A stretch of DNA of 64,000 nt, from the NCBI RefSeq assembly GCF_900113615.1, contig NZ_FOPZ01000017.1, positions 1 through 64,000 on the forward strand, written 5' to 3'. Positions 22,819-56,436 of the stretch are shown one piece after another. The DNA comes from Halorubrum aquaticum. Lineage in GTDB: Archaea; Halobacteriota; Halobacteria; Halobacteriales; Haloferacaceae. The position numbers and the translations under genes are program-made. The notes below the pieces were generated by a model. The model saw only the letters and a program-made list of their open reading frames with translations. It made no database searches and was not told the origin of the DNA. Within the stretch, counting starts at the first letter, position 1, and every line of letters begins with the position of its first letter.

Positions 22819-24357
22819 GTGACCGACTCCGCGCCGATCCCGGCCGACGAGTTCGAAGCCGCGCTCGAAGCCCTCGACCCGGAGGACCTCGTGGCGCTCG
22901 TCACCGAACTGTGGGCGGCGACCGCGAACGACGTCGAGGTCGATCCCCCGGTCGTCACGGTCCGGAACGGTGACGCCCGAACCGACCTCCTCGTCGCGCC
23001 TGCGGCGTCGGACGAGATCGTCGACGGGACCCGCGCCGGCGACGCGGTCGGTCTCGCCGAGACCGCCGACGCGGTCGTGCTCCCTCCCGAGGACTCGATA
23101 TGGAACGACGCCGAGACTGCCGCCGAGCGCCGGATCGCCGCCGACCTCGAGACCGTCTCCCCGGCCGATCTCAGACGGCGGCTCCTCTACGCCCTTCCGA
23201 CCGCGGACGCCGAGTCGCTGTGTGAGCGGTTTCTCGGGGTCCCGGCCCGATCGGGGTCGTACGACCGGGGATCGTCGACGGGGAACGACGCGACGGAGGA
23301 CGGAGCGGACGAGACCCGAACGGCCGGGGATCAGGAGACGGTGGGCGTCGCGAGCGCTCCCGGTTCGACGTTGCCGTCCCGCGCGGGATCCGGCGTCGCG
23401 GCGGGACGGATGGACTCCGACCGCGACGCGGGTGCGACCAGTGATCACGACGACCCATCCGAGGACGTGGCGTCACGCGGGAGGACGCCCACCGACGGAC
23501 CGTCCCGCGACGGTCACGCGACGTCTCGAGGGAGCGGTTCCGGCGTCCGTCGTGACCGGGTCGCGCTCGCGGTCGTCGCCGTGGTCCTGCTCGCGGCGGT
23601 CGCAGGCGCCGCGTCGCTGACCGGTCCGTCGCTCACGGACGGGAGCGGCGACCGACTCGACCCGAGCGACGACCCGCAGTCGACGAGCGGGGAAGCGAGC
23701 GATTCGAGCGATCCGTCCACGAGCGACGACCCGCAGTCGACCGACTCGACCGACTCGGTCGACCTCGGCGACTCGGGGACGTATACCGGGGTGACGGACA
23801 CCACCGGCCCGATCGACGCCGTCGAGGACCCCGATCCGAACGGAACGGCGGCCGCGCGGGCGACCGCCCTCGAGCCTACCTGCGAGCGTACGCCACTCCA
23901 CGTCGTCCAGATCCAGATGAACGCGCTACGGTACAACGACCCGACGACCAACGACGGGATCCGGACGACGAGACGGTTCGCGTCGCCACAGAACCGCCGA
24001 GCCGTGAGCAGTTTCTCGCAGTTCGTCGACCTCTTCGAGGGGCCGAACTACGCGCCGATGCTGGCCCACGACGCCGCGCGGTACGCCCCGCTGGGCATCG
24101 ACGGCGACCGCGCCACGGTGAGGGTCGTCACGTACGAGAACGGCTCCGCGACCGGCCGCTACGAGTTCCGGATGCGGAAGGTGAACGCGACGGACGCGTC
24201 GCTCACCGGATACGGGAGCGGGTACGACGGCTGCTGGATGACCGACGCGGTCGGCGTGTTGCCGATTGAGGAGGTGGACGGGACCGGCGACTCCGGGACC
24301 GGCGACGACTCCGAGACCGGCGACGACACCGTGGTCCACGGGCCGCCGGGAACCTGA
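22819..24357 (+). CDS. Conserved haloarchaeal single-pass membrane protein, DUF4864-like C terminus
   Basis: A 512-residue protein from GTG 22819. Residues 1-140 form an acidic soluble domain with a zinc-free, helical look (PADEFEAALEALDPEDLVAL, then LLYALPTADAESLCERFLG). A disordered segment leads to one membrane helix (VALAVVAVVLLAAVAGAA, about residue 250). Outside, a Ser/Asp-rich spacer is followed by a domain at about 350-495 resembling DUF4864: QIQMNALRYNDPTTNDGI, RFASPQNRRAV and NYAPMLAHDAARY. It probably senses or processes something across the membrane, but no catalytic motif is visible. Its last residues (VVHGPPGT) lie in a 34-bp tandem duplication. Confidence 0.6.
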   Translation: MTDSAPIPADEFEAALEALDPEDLVALVTELWAATANDVEVDPPVVTVRNGDARTDLLVAPAASDEIVDGTRAGDAVGLAETADAVVLPPEDSIWNDAETAAERRIAADLETVSPADLRRRLLYALPTADAESLCERFLGVPARSGSYDRGSSTGNDATEDGADETRTAGDQETVGVASAPGSTLPSRAGSGVAAGRMDSDRDAGATSDHDDPSEDVASRGRTPTDGPSRDGHATSRGSGSGVRRDRVALAVVAVVLLAAVAGAASLTGPSLTDGSGDRLDPSDDPQSTSGEASDSSDPSTSDDPQSTDSTDSVDLGDSGTYTGVTDTTGPIDAVEDPDPNGTAAARATALEPTCERTPLHVVQIQMNALRYNDPTTNDGIRTTRRFASPQNRRAVSSFSQFVDLFEGPNYAPMLAHDAARYAPLGIDGDRATVRVVTYENGSATGRYEFRMRKVNATDASLTGYGSGYDGCWMTDAVGVLPIEEVDGTGDSGTGDDSETGDDTVVHGPPGT

Positions 24358-24418
24358 CTGCTCCGTGGTCCACGGGCCGCCGGGAACCTGAGTACTCCGC
24401 GGTCCATTCGACTACTCC
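24331..24418. repeat. 34-bp tandem duplication across a stop codon, with a third partial copy
   Basis: Copies 24331-24364 and 24365-24398 begin GTGGTCCACGGGCCGCCGGG and differ at two positions; a decayed third begins at 24399. The first copy contains the gene's last codons and its TGA. The third overlaps the stop of the convergent YqeC-like gene. Confidence 0.9.
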
Positions 24419-25164
24419 ACGACCGCGACGACCGCCGGCTCCCGCATCCGCGCGAGGACGACGCGCGGCACGTCGGCGCGCTCGTGGATCGCCGCGGCGA
24501 CCTCCCGGGCGACCGCCTCGTCCGCGTCGTCGTCGACCATGTTCAAGAGCGGAACCGCGGTCGCGTCGGCGGGGACCCCCTTCAGTCCGCCCGCCTCGTG
24601 TGCCACGACGCGGCCGACCAGTTCCGGCGTGATCTCGTCGCCGGTCTCGACGCCGTCGACGAGCCCGGCCACGCGCTCGGGTCGATGGACGACCGCCTCC
24701 GAGAGCGGTTCGCCGACGGCGTGGACGCTCGCAACCGGCACGACGGTGTCGGCTCCGGCGGGGACCTGCGGCTCGCGGTCGTTCGGAGCCTTGAACAGCC
24801 GCGTCCGCGCGCCGTCGGCTTTCACCAACACGGGGCCGTCGTGAGCCGCCGAGAGGCGGTCGACGGTCTCCGGGTCGTATCCGCGGTACCGGTCGTCACG
24901 CTCCCGCTCCGGAACGAGCCCGAGGGGGAACGTCGCGCGCTCATCGTCGCTCTCGCGGTCGCGGAGGCTGGCGAGTTCGGAGACCGGATCGGCCGCCGTC
25001 CGCACCGTGGCGACCTGCCGGTCGAAGATCGGGATCCGGACCGTCGCCGTGAGCACCGCCCGATCGAGTCGGTCGGCGAGCACGTACAGCGTCGTCTTCT
25101 TCCCGCCGGCCCCGACGAGACAGGTGGTCCCCTCGCCCGCATCGAGCGCGTCGACGACGTTCAT
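24412..25164 (-). CDS. YqeC-like protein (molybdenum/selenium hydroxylase accessory family)
   Basis: A 250-residue P-loop-like protein. The N terminus reads TCLVGAGGKKTTLYVLADRL, the family's nucleotide-binding motif. Further signatures are DGPVLVKADGARTRLFKAP and ADTVVPVASVHAVGEPL. In bacteria YqeC-type genes accompany selenium-dependent molybdenum hydroxylases; the biochemical role is unproven. Here it is divergent from an aldehyde ferredoxin oxidoreductase-like gene, another pterin-metal enzyme family, across 125 bases. The ATG at 25164 starts the conserved domain; the longer frame overlaps the neighbour's promoter. Assignment is by motif recall. Confidence 0.7.
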   Translation of the reverse strand: MNVVDALDAGEGTTCLVGAGGKKTTLYVLADRLDRAVLTATVRIPIFDRQVATVRTAADPVSELASLRDRESDDERATFPLGLVPERERDDRYRGYDPETVDRLSAAHDGPVLVKADGARTRLFKAPNDREPQVPAGADTVVPVASVHAVGEPLSEAVVHRPERVAGLVDGVETGDEITPELVGRVVAHEAGGLKGVPADATAVPLLNMVDDDADEAVAREVAAAIHERADVPRVVLARMREPAVVAVVE

Positions 25165-25289: not shown

Positions 25290-27218
25290 ATGATGGACCC
25301 ACCGGACCGGATCCTCCGCGTCGACCTCTCGACCCGCCGAGTCGACAGCGAACCGGTCCCCGAGGAGTGGCTCGCGAGGTACGTCGGCGGGAAGGGGCTG
25401 GGCGCGCGCTACCTCTACGCGGCCGGCGGCGGGATCGACCCGGAGTCGCCGGCGAACCCCCTCGCGTTCATGACCGGACCGCTGACCGGCTACACCCCCG
25501 GCGAGCAGCGGTACGCGGCGATCACGAAGTCGCCGCTCACGGGCGCGTTCCTCGACTCCTACGGCGGCGGTGCCTTCCCCGGCCGACTCGCCGCCTCGCT
25601 CGGCCCGCACCTCGGGGTGCTCGTCACCGGCGCGGCCGACGAGCCGGTCGTTCTCTCGCTCTCGGACGGCGAGGCGACCGTCGATCCCGCGGGCGACCTG
25701 TGGGGTCTCGACGCGGCGGAGACGGACGACCGCTTTCCGGACGCGGCCGTCGCCTGCGTCGGTCCGGCGGGCGAGAACGCGGTGCGATACGCGACGATCG
25801 CCTCCGACGGCGGCGACCACCACGCCGGTCGCGGAGGCGCGGGCGCGGTGATGGGATCGAAACGCCTGAAGGCGGTCGTCGCCCGCGACCCGCCGCCGGA
25901 GCCGTCAGGCCGGCTGGCGGCCCTCAGGGAGCGCGACGGCGCGGCGTTCGCCGACAGCGACGCGGGGCGCTGGCTGGCCGCGAGCGACACCCTCGAGACG
26001 GTGGACTTCGCGAACGAGGCGGGCGTGCTCCCGACCCGCGGCTGGCAGGAGCGCCGCTTCGAGGGCGCGGAGGGGATCGGGATCGAGCGCGCCGCGGAGC
26101 GCGCGACGGGCCGCGAGCGCGAGGACGACCCGGTCCCCGGCGGGTTCCGGATCCCGGAGAGCGAAGGGGCGGAAAACGACGACGACGGCGACGCTGGCGA
26201 CGACGATGGAGACGACCGGGACGACGGCGACGCTGGCGACGGAGACGAACGGGACGACGGAGACGGAGACTACGACGCCGGCGAGAGCGCGTCCGCCGGC
26301 GACAGCGTCCCGCGCGGCGCGACGCCCATCGTCCTCGGGGCGGGGCTCGGGATCGACGACTTCGACGCGGTCGCGGCGCTGGGCGGCGTCTGTGACCGGC
26401 TCGGAATGGACGTCATCTCCGCGGGCAACGCGGTCGCCTGGGCGGTCCGCGCCGGCGAGGAGGGCCTGATCGACCGCGAGGTCGCCTTCGGCGACGAGGC
26501 GGCCGCACGGGCGACCATCGAGGAGATCGCGGGTCGGGAGACGCCGCTCGGCGACGCCCTCGCCGACGGCGTCGCGGCCGCCGCGGCGCGGCTCGGCGGC
26601 GAGGACCTGATCCCGACGGTGAAGGGGATGGAACTCTCCTCGTACGACCCCCGCGGGGCGACGTCGATGGCGCTGGCGTACGCAACCAGCGACCGCGGCG
26701 CGTGCCACCGGCGGGCTCGACCGGTCGAGGCCGACGCGATGGCACCCGATTCACGCGATCCGGACGCCGTCGCCGCCGCGGTCGCGGCCGAGCAGGACCG
26801 CCGGGCCGCGCTGTGGTGTCTCGTCGGAGACGACTTCCTCGAGGACGTGTTCGACCCCGCGGTCGCCGCCGAGTGGCTCGCCGCCCGCGGGTACGACCAC
26901 GACCCGGCGGACCTCGCCGCCCTCGGCGAGCGGGTGTGGACGCTCACCCGGCTGTACAACGTCCGAGAGGGGTTCCGCCGCGAGGACGACGCGCTGCCGC
27001 CGGCGATCGCGGGGGCGAGGGACGAGGGCGACGAGGCCGCCTCGGATCACTCGGACGGACTCGACCCGAACGCGTTCAACGAGCTCCTCGACGGCTACTA
27101 CGCCGTTCGGGAGTGGGACGAGAACGGGCGGCCGACCGCGACGCTCCTCGACCGGCTCGGACTCGCCGATCTCGCGGACGTGCCCGCCGCGACGGGCGGC
27201 GGGATCGACGGTCGCTGA
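25290..27218 (+). CDS. Aldehyde ferredoxin oxidoreductase paralogue lacking the CxxCxxxC cluster motif
   Basis: A 642-residue AOR-family protein. Typical members hold tungsto-bispterin and one [4Fe-4S] cluster and oxidise aldehydes with ferredoxin. The N-terminal pterin domain is intact (YVGGKGLGARYLY, PLTGAFLDSYGGGAFPG, GRGGAGAVMGSKRLKAV). Later pterin motifs also remain (DRLGMDVISAGNAVAWA, VKGMELSSYDPRG, SDRGACHR). Where three cluster cysteines should lie, about residues 285-345, there is an acidic low-complexity insert containing a 39-bp tandem duplication (26181 and 26220); no Cys occurs there. The fourth position may survive as ALWCLV. The paralogue at 54.7 kb keeps GTCSNCAFACK. The change could mean a non-redox or cluster-free role, or a gene losing function; the long intact frame favours a functional protein. 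Confidence 0.82.
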   Translation: MMDPPDRILRVDLSTRRVDSEPVPEEWLARYVGGKGLGARYLYAAGGGIDPESPANPLAFMTGPLTGYTPGEQRYAAITKSPLTGAFLDSYGGGAFPGRLAASLGPHLGVLVTGAADEPVVLSLSDGEATVDPAGDLWGLDAAETDDRFPDAAVACVGPAGENAVRYATIASDGGDHHAGRGGAGAVMGSKRLKAVVARDPPPEPSGRLAALRERDGAAFADSDAGRWLAASDTLETVDFANEAGVLPTRGWQERRFEGAEGIGIERAAERATGREREDDPVPGGFRIPESEGAENDDDGDAGDDDGDDRDDGDAGDGDERDDGDGDYDAGESASAGDSVPRGATPIVLGAGLGIDDFDAVAALGGVCDRLGMDVISAGNAVAWAVRAGEEGLIDREVAFGDEAAARATIEEIAGRETPLGDALADGVAAAAARLGGEDLIPTVKGMELSSYDPRGATSMALAYATSDRGACHRRARPVEADAMAPDSRDPDAVAAAVAAEQDRRAALWCLVGDDFLEDVFDPAVAAEWLAARGYDHDPADLAALGERVWTLTRLYNVREGFRREDDALPPAIAGARDEGDEAASDHSDGLDPNAFNELLDGYYAVREWDENGRPTATLLDRLGLADLADVPAATGGGIDGR

Positions 27219-54714: not shown

Positions 54715-56436
54715 ATGAAACACGCACAGGGGGAACTCCTCTCGATCGACCTGACGGACAGGACGGTCACGGCGGAGCCGATCGACGACGTGCTCTCGGA
54801 GTTCATCGGTGGACGAGGGCTCAACACCCGGCTCGCCTACGAGCGGATCCCGTTCGACGCCGACCCGCTCGGCCCGGAGAACCGGATCTACTTCTCGACG
54901 GGACCGATGCAGTACTCCACGACCTCGTACACGGGGCGCATGGCGGCGACGAGCGTCTCGCCGCTCACGAACGGGATGTTCTCCTCGAACGCGGGCGGGT
55001 TCCTCTCGCGGAACTTCACCGGAGCGGGCTACGCCGCCGTCGAGATCGTCGGCGCGAGCGACGAACTGCTCGCGCTCCACGTCCGCGAGGCCGACGAGGA
55101 CGGCACGCCGGTCGTCGAGTTCGAGGAGGTCCCGGAGCTCGAGCAGGCGGAGGTCCCGGCGGTGTCGGAGTACGTCGAGACGGAGCGCGATCTGGAGGCC
55201 GAACACCTGGCGTGTATCGGTCCGGCGGGCGAGAACGGCGTCCGCTTCGCGTCGATCATGACCTCGGAGACGCGCGCGTTCGGTCGGGGCGGGCTGGGGG
55301 CCGTCCTCGGCGCGAAGGGCGTGAAGGCGCTCACGTTCGACGGCGACGCCGACGCCGAGATCGAACTCGACTGGCCCGACGACGCCGGGGAGGTCCACCG
55401 GGAGGCGGCGACGTCGGACTCGATCATGAAACGCCAGGGGACCACGAGCGTGACCGAGCTCTCGAACGCGATGGACGCGCTCCCCTCCTACTACTTCTCC
55501 GAGCAGTCCTTCGAGGGCGTCGAGGGGATCTCCGGCGACCGCGTCGAGGAGAAGAAGTACAAGAAGGGGACCTGCTCGAACTGCGCGTTCGCGTGCAAGC
55601 TGCCGACCCGCGACGAGGAGCGCGGCATCGAGACCGAGGGTCCGGAGTTCGAGACCGTGATGGCGTTCGGCAGCAACGCCGGCGTCGACGAGATGGTCGA
55701 CGTGATGGCGGCCAACCAGCTCTGTGACGAGCTCGGCATGGACACCATCTCCTGTGGCAACGTGGTCTCGATGTTCCTCGAGAGCGAGGACGAGTTCGGC
55801 AACGCCGAGCTCGCCCGCTCCGTGGTCGAGCAGATCGCCTACCGCGAGGGCGTCGGCGACACGCTCGCGGAGGGGATCCACCGGGCCCACGAGGAGTTCG
55901 GCGCGGAAGACTGGACGGTGAAGGGGATGACCTTCTCGGCACACGACGGCCGGTCGCTCAACGGCCAGGGGCTCGCGTTCGCGACCTCGAACCGCGGAGC
56001 CGACCACATGTACGCGGAGTTCTACCCGTACGAGTACCCGCTCGTGAGCAAGGAGGACGCCTTCGAGCCGAACGGACTGGACGGGAAGCCGCCGAAGATC
56101 GTCGAGAAGGAGAACCGTAACGCGATCCTCGACTCCGCGGTCATCTGTAAGTTCTCCCGGGGTGTCGTCACCGACGAGCGGCTGGCGGCGCTGCTCGACG
56201 CCGACTACGCGGACCTCGTCGACACCGGCGGCCGGGTCGTCGAGATGGAGCGCGCGTTCAACAACGCCCGCGGCTTCGACCGCGGCGACGACACGCTCCC
56301 GTACGTCGACCAGATCGAGGCGTTCGACGAGGGGCTCTCGGAGTACTACGAGATCCGCGACTGGAACGACGACGGGACGGTTCCGGGGTACGACGACGGC
56401 GTCGTCGACCGCTCCGCCGGGACGGCGGACGACTGA
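54715..56436 (+). CDS. aor: Aldehyde ferredoxin oxidoreductase (intact cluster cysteines)
   Basis: A 573-residue tungsten-pterin enzyme that oxidises aldehydes to acids with ferredoxin. It has pterin motifs FIGGRGLNTRLAYERI, SPLTNGMFSSNAGGFLSRN and AFGRGGLGAVLGAKGVKAL. The [4Fe-4S] ligands are GTCSNCAFACK (about residues 285-292) plus Cys in SAVICKFSRG. The usual GPEFET Glu and DELGMDTISCGN are also present. It is the intact counterpart of the Cys-less paralogue at 25.3 kb. Monocistronic with its own promoter. Confidence 0.93.
   Translation: MKHAQGELLSIDLTDRTVTAEPIDDVLSEFIGGRGLNTRLAYERIPFDADPLGPENRIYFSTGPMQYSTTSYTGRMAATSVSPLTNGMFSSNAGGFLSRNFTGAGYAAVEIVGASDELLALHVREADEDGTPVVEFEEVPELEQAEVPAVSEYVETERDLEAEHLACIGPAGENGVRFASIMTSETRAFGRGGLGAVLGAKGVKALTFDGDADAEIELDWPDDAGEVHREAATSDSIMKRQGTTSVTELSNAMDALPSYYFSEQSFEGVEGISGDRVEEKKYKKGTCSNCAFACKLPTRDEERGIETEGPEFETVMAFGSNAGVDEMVDVMAANQLCDELGMDTISCGNVVSMFLESEDEFGNAELARSVVEQIAYREGVGDTLAEGIHRAHEEFGAEDWTVKGMTFSAHDGRSLNGQGLAFATSNRGADHMYAEFYPYEYPLVSKEDAFEPNGLDGKPPKIVEKENRNAILDSAVICKFSRGVVTDERLAALLDADYADLVDTGGRVVEMERAFNNARGFDRGDDTLPYVDQIEAFDEGLSEYYEIRDWNDDGTVPGYDDGVVDRSAGTADD

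Follow-up and report, generated by a model that had tools for sequence, protein, structure and literature searches.

Bis-molybdopterin is the cofactor of AOR and a precursor of bis-MGD, and the locus described here raises the question of what an AOR-fold protein does once its iron-sulfur cluster is gone. According to a 2025 review, tungstoenzymes share the W-cofactor together with at least one nearby Fe4S4 cluster (PMC12096430), and a 2026 classification into 92 clades states that the cofactor-coordinating residues vary very little (PMC13328260). The gene at issue, here termed AORx, lies in the window, i.e. the complete stretch of 64,000 nucleotides of Halorubrum aquaticum DNA that was analysed (Table 1).

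Table 1. Positions of the features discussed, in the window unless a locus is named.
Feature	Coordinates	Strand	Remarks
YqeC homologue, divergent, about 125 bp upstream of AORx	24412..25164	-	TIGR03172 match 24481-25125(-)
AORx, AOR-fold protein without all four [4Fe-4S] cysteines	25290..27218	+	642 aa; AFOR_N 204 bits, AFOR_C 293 bits
F286 at third Cys of CxxCxxxC	26145..26147	+	F in 61/64 AORx, C in 37/37 cluster-bearing homologues
Acidic Asp/Gly-rich insert, aa 290-339	26157..26306	+	lineage-specific, predicted disordered
Two imperfect 39-bp tandem units, 26181-26219 and 26220-26258	26181..26258	+	29/39 identical
R342-G343-A344 at Glu311-Tyr312-Glu313 of AORs	26313..26321	+	catalytic Glu lost; 1aor numbering
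H473, equivalent of active-site His448, kept	26706..26708	+	invariant alignment column
D514 at fourth cluster ligand (Pyrococcus AOR Cys494)	26829..26831	+	D in 64/64 AORx, C in 37/37 cluster-bearing homologues
Second AOR in the window, distant paralogue	54715..56436	+	intact CSNCAFAC motif (GTCSNCAFACK)
c4 members	L081:5220-5801, L088:4439-5101, L116:10012-10641, L123:7777-8463

An AOR fold without cluster ligands

The reading frame of AORx is unbroken, and a Pfam scan of its product returned AFOR_N and AFOR_C far above cut-off and no FdhD-NarQ domain. An AF2 model (48 relatives) reached a pLDDT of 88.6 and a pTM of 0.89, and Foldseek matched it to 1b25, 9mqx and 1aor with TM scores of 0.84/0.88-0.89, all significant matches being AOR-family entries. 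By domains and fold, AORx belongs to the AOR/WOR family. The other hallmark of this family, a [4Fe-4S] cluster bound by CxxCxxxC and the Cys of DxxGLC, is missing, as all four positions are replaced. The claim of an earlier note on this DNA that the pterin motifs are kept while no Cys stands where CxxCxxxC belongs was borne out by MAFFT alignments, from which the residue columns were read for 64 AORx and 37 cluster-bearing homologues and numbered as in Pyrococcus AOR by alignment to 1aor. Relocation of the cluster to another part of the protein was considered and rejected, since CxxCxxxC occurs nowhere in AORx and the few remaining Cys follow no conserved cluster pattern. Loss of the cluster is thus near-certain.

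The same note had missed the replacement of the fourth cluster Cys as well as a change in the active site, where Glu311-Tyr312-Glu313 have become Arg-Gly-Ala. The Glu311 column reads R in 64/64 AORx and E in 36/37 cluster-bearing homologues, the Tyr312 column G in 64/64 against Y in 35/37, and A344 of the window protein occupies the Glu313 position. According to the review, Thr243, Glu313, Tyr427 and His448 constitute the conserved second shell of AORs, and Glu313 is the proposed acid/base of aldehyde oxidation (PMC12096430). The second-shell set of an aldehyde-oxidising AOR is therefore incomplete in AORx, which keeps Thr243 (T234), Tyr427 (Y452) and His448 (H473) but has lost the Glu. On the cofactor side, the D338..L342-D343 pterin motif is kept, and the pterin/Mg-side motifs AGRGGxGAVMGxKxLKA and CDxLGxD are near-invariant together with the active-site His. 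Residues on the binding side of a W/Mo-bis-MPT-Mg cofactor are hence largely retained and may form a putative site, the pocket having been assessed from sequence alone rather than from model geometry.

These observations bear on the possibility that AORx is a catalytically dead AOR with a structural or regulatory task, e.g. as a formate dehydrogenase subunit or sensor, which may bind no metal at all. Such a protein could well have shed its cluster ligands and catalytic Glu and would suit the formate dehydrogenase genes adjoining it; however, near-invariant pterin/Mg-side motifs and an active-site His would not be required of a protein with a structural role only, and this explanation is regarded as improbable.

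Compared with P. furiosus AOR (1aor) and other members of the AOR/WOR family, AORx shares the full-length fold (TM 0.84/0.89) and both Pfam domains, and with 1aor also Thr243/Tyr427/His448 and the first pterin motif, but differs from that enzyme in its [4Fe-4S] ligands (three Cys lost, C494 being D), Glu313, Glu311 and Tyr312. The nearest reported case is P. furiosus WOR4, in which one Cys is changed to Gly, the cluster is Fe3S4 and no activity is known (PMC12096430). WOR4 thus resembles AORx as an AOR with an altered cluster ligand and without detected aldehyde activity, whereas a 3Fe cluster remains in WOR4 and no ligands are left in AORx. Hfx. volcanii WOR83 (9q1t) is likewise a haloarchaeal member of the AOR family, but is by name a Class I enzyme of clade 83 (PMC13328260) and, judging by how it aligns with the window protein, may stand nearer the cluster-bearing L001 type. 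The accessible parts of PMC12096430 and PMC13328260 do not describe a Cys-less clade, and no report of a Cys-less AOR or ligand-free clade was found in the main texts of the open-access literature.

The Halorubrum aquaticum genome encodes five AORs, four of which have intact motifs (CHSCPVAC, CYNCPVAC, CSNCAFAC and CSMCAFAC). The second AOR of the window had been proposed as an internal control for AORx; its motif is indeed intact, but it is too distant a paralogue for this purpose, and the proper control is L002 on contig C29 (C29:13781-14914, CYNCPVAC). This protein forms the sister branch of AORx (SH-aLRT 100) and is also devoid of D489, but neither the PEYET segment nor any of the four cluster Cys has been lost from it.

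The acidic insert is no replacement for the cluster

The earlier note had further regarded the [4Fe-4S] motif as replaced by an acidic insert containing a 39-bp tandem duplication. The first of these views does not hold, since most AORx possess a short Cys-free loop (PGGFRVETDDGETVPRGAT...) without any insert. The insert is mainly limited to the genus of the window genome and one other, varies in length from about 9 to 60 residues, and is unrelated in sequence between relatives. Moreover, pN is close to pS in comparison with congeners, pointing to neutral evolution, and the AF2 block means over this segment (aa 291-340) are as low as about 44-63 in pLDDT. A functional replacement of the cluster by the insert was accordingly rejected: most AORx are free of it, and it evolves neutrally and is predicted to be disordered. 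Its absence from most genera and the unrelated sequences in relatives make it look like a young product of slippage rather than the cause of cluster loss. As to the duplication, both units are present at 26181 and 26220, though as imperfect copies; their identity exceeds that obtained when the codons of the insert are shuffled (p=0.0055; 30/39 in the best register), and Tandem Repeats Finder (TRF) favours periods of 33 and 18 bp.

A conserved clade across Halobacteria

In a quick tree built without the motif columns and supported by SH-aLRT values rather than bootstrap, the AORx orthologues constitute one clade across the class Halobacteria (SH-aLRT 99) with a single change of state. Cys-less orthologues occur throughout the family sample, and carriers in the named set comprise Halorubrum, Haloferax, Haloarcula, Natrinema, Natrialba, Halobacterium, Haladaptatus, Halorussus, Natronomonas and others; every AORx retrieved there is devoid of the motif, while every non-haloarchaeal homologue has it. 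Class-wide, AORx was detected in 160/294 genomes, a count that leaves out four Cys-bearing proteins identified on inspection as L002-type (G189, G275, G341 and G030, the first three from genomes without YqeC). Comparison of the window gene with its congeners (Nei-Gojobori, NG86) yielded a core dN/dS of 0.19-0.38, to be read as an upper guide because GC bias lowers dS. The AORx core is under purifying selection.

The check proposed beforehand, whether the Cys-less type is a conserved clade under purifying selection, thus turned out positive, and decay confined to a single genome is ruled out by the shared clade state and the core dN/dS, which is not elevated. A decaying pseudogene or an assembly artefact of the window genome is accordingly scarcely conceivable: the low-complexity tandem insert and the occasional truncated copy in other genomes (L120, L121) might be adduced for it, but the reading frame is unbroken, 64 orthologues share the same state in a single clade, and the core omega is well below 1.

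Two side observations concern individual lineages. Truncation or an in-frame TGA affects a small number of AORx copies (L120, L121; G177, G315). In addition, two AORx types exist within one genus (L007 versus L088), the window type joining Natrialbaceae (SH-aLRT 97), a placement in the tree that suggests transfer or an old duplication.

Linkage to cofactor and formate dehydrogenase genes

The neighbourhood of AORx recurs across the class. In 40 loci of the family sample, genes for YqeC (TIGR03172) were found 21 times, MobA-like proteins and formate dehydrogenase alpha (TIGR01591) 13 times each, DUF7124 and CobW 9 times each, and a TorD/NarJ chaperone 8 times. Among 47 named loci from the whole class, the corresponding figures were 22 for DUF7124, 22 for formate dehydrogenase, 21 for YqeC, 18 for TorD and 16 for MobA, each partner being spread across 11-16 genera (YqeC across 13). 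Distances read by hand placed AORx within 10 kb of YqeC in 76 of the 132 genomes with listed positions, and within 10 kb of formate dehydrogenase in 43 genomes of the family. In Hfx. massiliensis (L100), for example, AORx adjoins both YqeC and formate dehydrogenase. AORx is therefore linked to formate dehydrogenase and cofactor genes in the manner of a maturation factor.

Several neighbours deserve mention in their own right. The DUF7124 gene of 22 of the 47 named loci is found a short distance downstream of AORx (e.g. L077, L080, L082, L089 and L103). A family of about 200 aa without Pfam match, termed c4, recurs adjoining formate dehydrogenase genes, and in the window a 512-aa protein (22819-24357, plus strand) features an Asp/Ser-rich linker and a sub-threshold DUF4864 match only.

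Co-occurrence with YqeC in organisms devoid of FdhD

The link to YqeC extends beyond gene order. YqeC was present in 160/160 AORx genomes, while 42 further genomes of the 294 contained YqeC without AORx and 92 contained neither (Fisher p about 1e-43, a value that ignores kinship, no species-tree correction being applied). Joint absence of both genes repeats within several genera. No complete genome was observed to have AORx but not YqeC, and the sole possible exception in the family sample is G078, a 79%-complete genome. In this sample, 139/171 genomes encode YqeC and 144/171 formate dehydrogenase alpha; formate dehydrogenase occurs in 133/139 YqeC-positive versus 11/32 YqeC-negative genomes, where unlisted negatives were inferred by subtraction. 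Six YqeC-negative genomes harbour formate dehydrogenase alpha-like genes of a TCGYCAVGCR/RLCHSST subtype, and the RMCHAST type was not found in the stretches examined in these six. Some AORx genomes (G054, G056, G062 and G158, the last of them incomplete) gave no TIGR01591 match. Of these, G056 encodes a Tat-type formate-dehydrogenase-like protein close to AORx, and in G054 such a gene is partial. Conversely, formate dehydrogenase and YqeC exist together without AORx (e.g. G028, G035 and G036), so AORx is not needed by every formate dehydrogenase. A role of AORx as a general W-cofactor factor serving other AORs is disfavoured, since G107, G109 and G148 contain AOR-family matches without AORx.

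YqeC was first defined alongside selenium-dependent molybdenum hydroxylases (PMC2276186), and possible selenium-free roles have already been remarked upon (PMC5029168). A selenium-dependent molybdenum hydroxylase system (YqeB/YqeC/SelD) was rejected as an explanation, because SelD was detected in 1/171 family genomes as opposed to 139/171 for YqeC; hence, haloarchaeal YqeC does not represent the selenium system. In G004, a second YqeC adjoins the sole SelD detected.

Bacterial formate dehydrogenase requires FdhD (PMC13197769). FdhD was found in 0/171 family genomes (TIGR00129) and in 0/294 Halobacteria (Pfam FdhD), with positive controls. As formate dehydrogenase is common in the same organisms, haloarchaea either accomplish the FdhD step otherwise or need none. 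No paper on haloarchaeal formate dehydrogenase maturation was found in the open-access literature.

Maturation factor or cluster-free enzyme

The earlier note had left a choice between another electron path and another job, and the second option agrees with both the missing Glu313 and the newly recognised genomic neighbours. We infer that AORx binds the cofactor, performs no aldehyde chemistry and has a role in formate dehydrogenase maturation. More specifically, binding of a Mo/W-bis-pterin cofactor by AORx within a formate dehydrogenase maturation module devoid of FdhD is the reading tentatively favoured here, at slightly less than an even chance, because cluster and acid/base residues are gone while pterin-side residues are kept, and because it is accompanied by cofactor and formate dehydrogenase genes. 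As a haloarchaeal clade of the AOR/WOR family, AORx has kept the fold and most bis-pterin/Mg-site residues, while the entire [4Fe-4S] site and the catalytic Glu disappeared either before Halobacteria radiated or at an early stage of that radiation. According to this proposal, AORx would hold Mo- or W-bis-molybdopterin and make it available, by transfer or exposure, to MobA/YqeC-dependent finishing and to formate dehydrogenase. AORx may thereby take the pathway place of FdhD, the formate dehydrogenase sulfurtransferase/carrier, in late cofactor handling, although no sequence relation between the two was found and none of the Halobacteria tested has FdhD. The maturation role draws on the uniform replacement of the ligands and of Glu311/Tyr312/Glu313 alongside the retained second-shell and pterin-motif residues, the single clade with its intact sister paralogue, the low core omega, the full AOR fold, the linkage, the co-occurrence with YqeC, the association of YqeC with formate dehydrogenase, the near-absence of SelD and the absence of FdhD. 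Counting against it are the genomes with formate dehydrogenase and YqeC but no AORx, the retained Thr243, Tyr427 and His448, which would equally suit an enzyme, and the deletion of YqeC in C. difficile, which caused no clear growth phenotype (PMC11448449).

A working Mo/W enzyme without cluster, i.e. a client of the YqeC/MobA pathway instead of a helper, is the main alternative, possible though less likely. It might relay electrons from the pterin straight to a partner protein, in the way of DorA/TorA, or catalyze a non-redox reaction. DorA/TorA of the DMSO reductase family are cluster-free, so a pterin enzyme can work without a cluster. Three of the four second-shell residues are in place, AORx implies YqeC and not the reverse, as expected of a client, and redox genes (a poly-FeS protein and formate dehydrogenase) are nearby in many loci. 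On the other hand, Glu313 has disappeared along with Glu311 and Tyr312, a redox partner subunit common to all loci is not found next to AORx, and the repeated siting beside varied formate dehydrogenase types, a chaperone and MobA resembles maturation.

Implications

The wider proposition derived from the maturation role, namely that haloarchaeal formate dehydrogenase is matured without FdhD by a repurposed AOR-fold protein that carries the bis-pterin cofactor or serves as its finishing platform, in concert with a YqeC independent of selenium, is less likely than not in this full form. If true, AORx would be the first member of the AOR family without an iron-sulfur cluster and with a non-catalytic role. 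A conserved cluster-free clade in genetically tractable archaea constitutes a clean test of the AOR scaffold without its electron relay. Moreover, the AORx loci provide candidate genes for the finishing of formate dehydrogenase in organisms devoid of FdhD, and the link to AORx gives YqeC a candidate selenium-free role.
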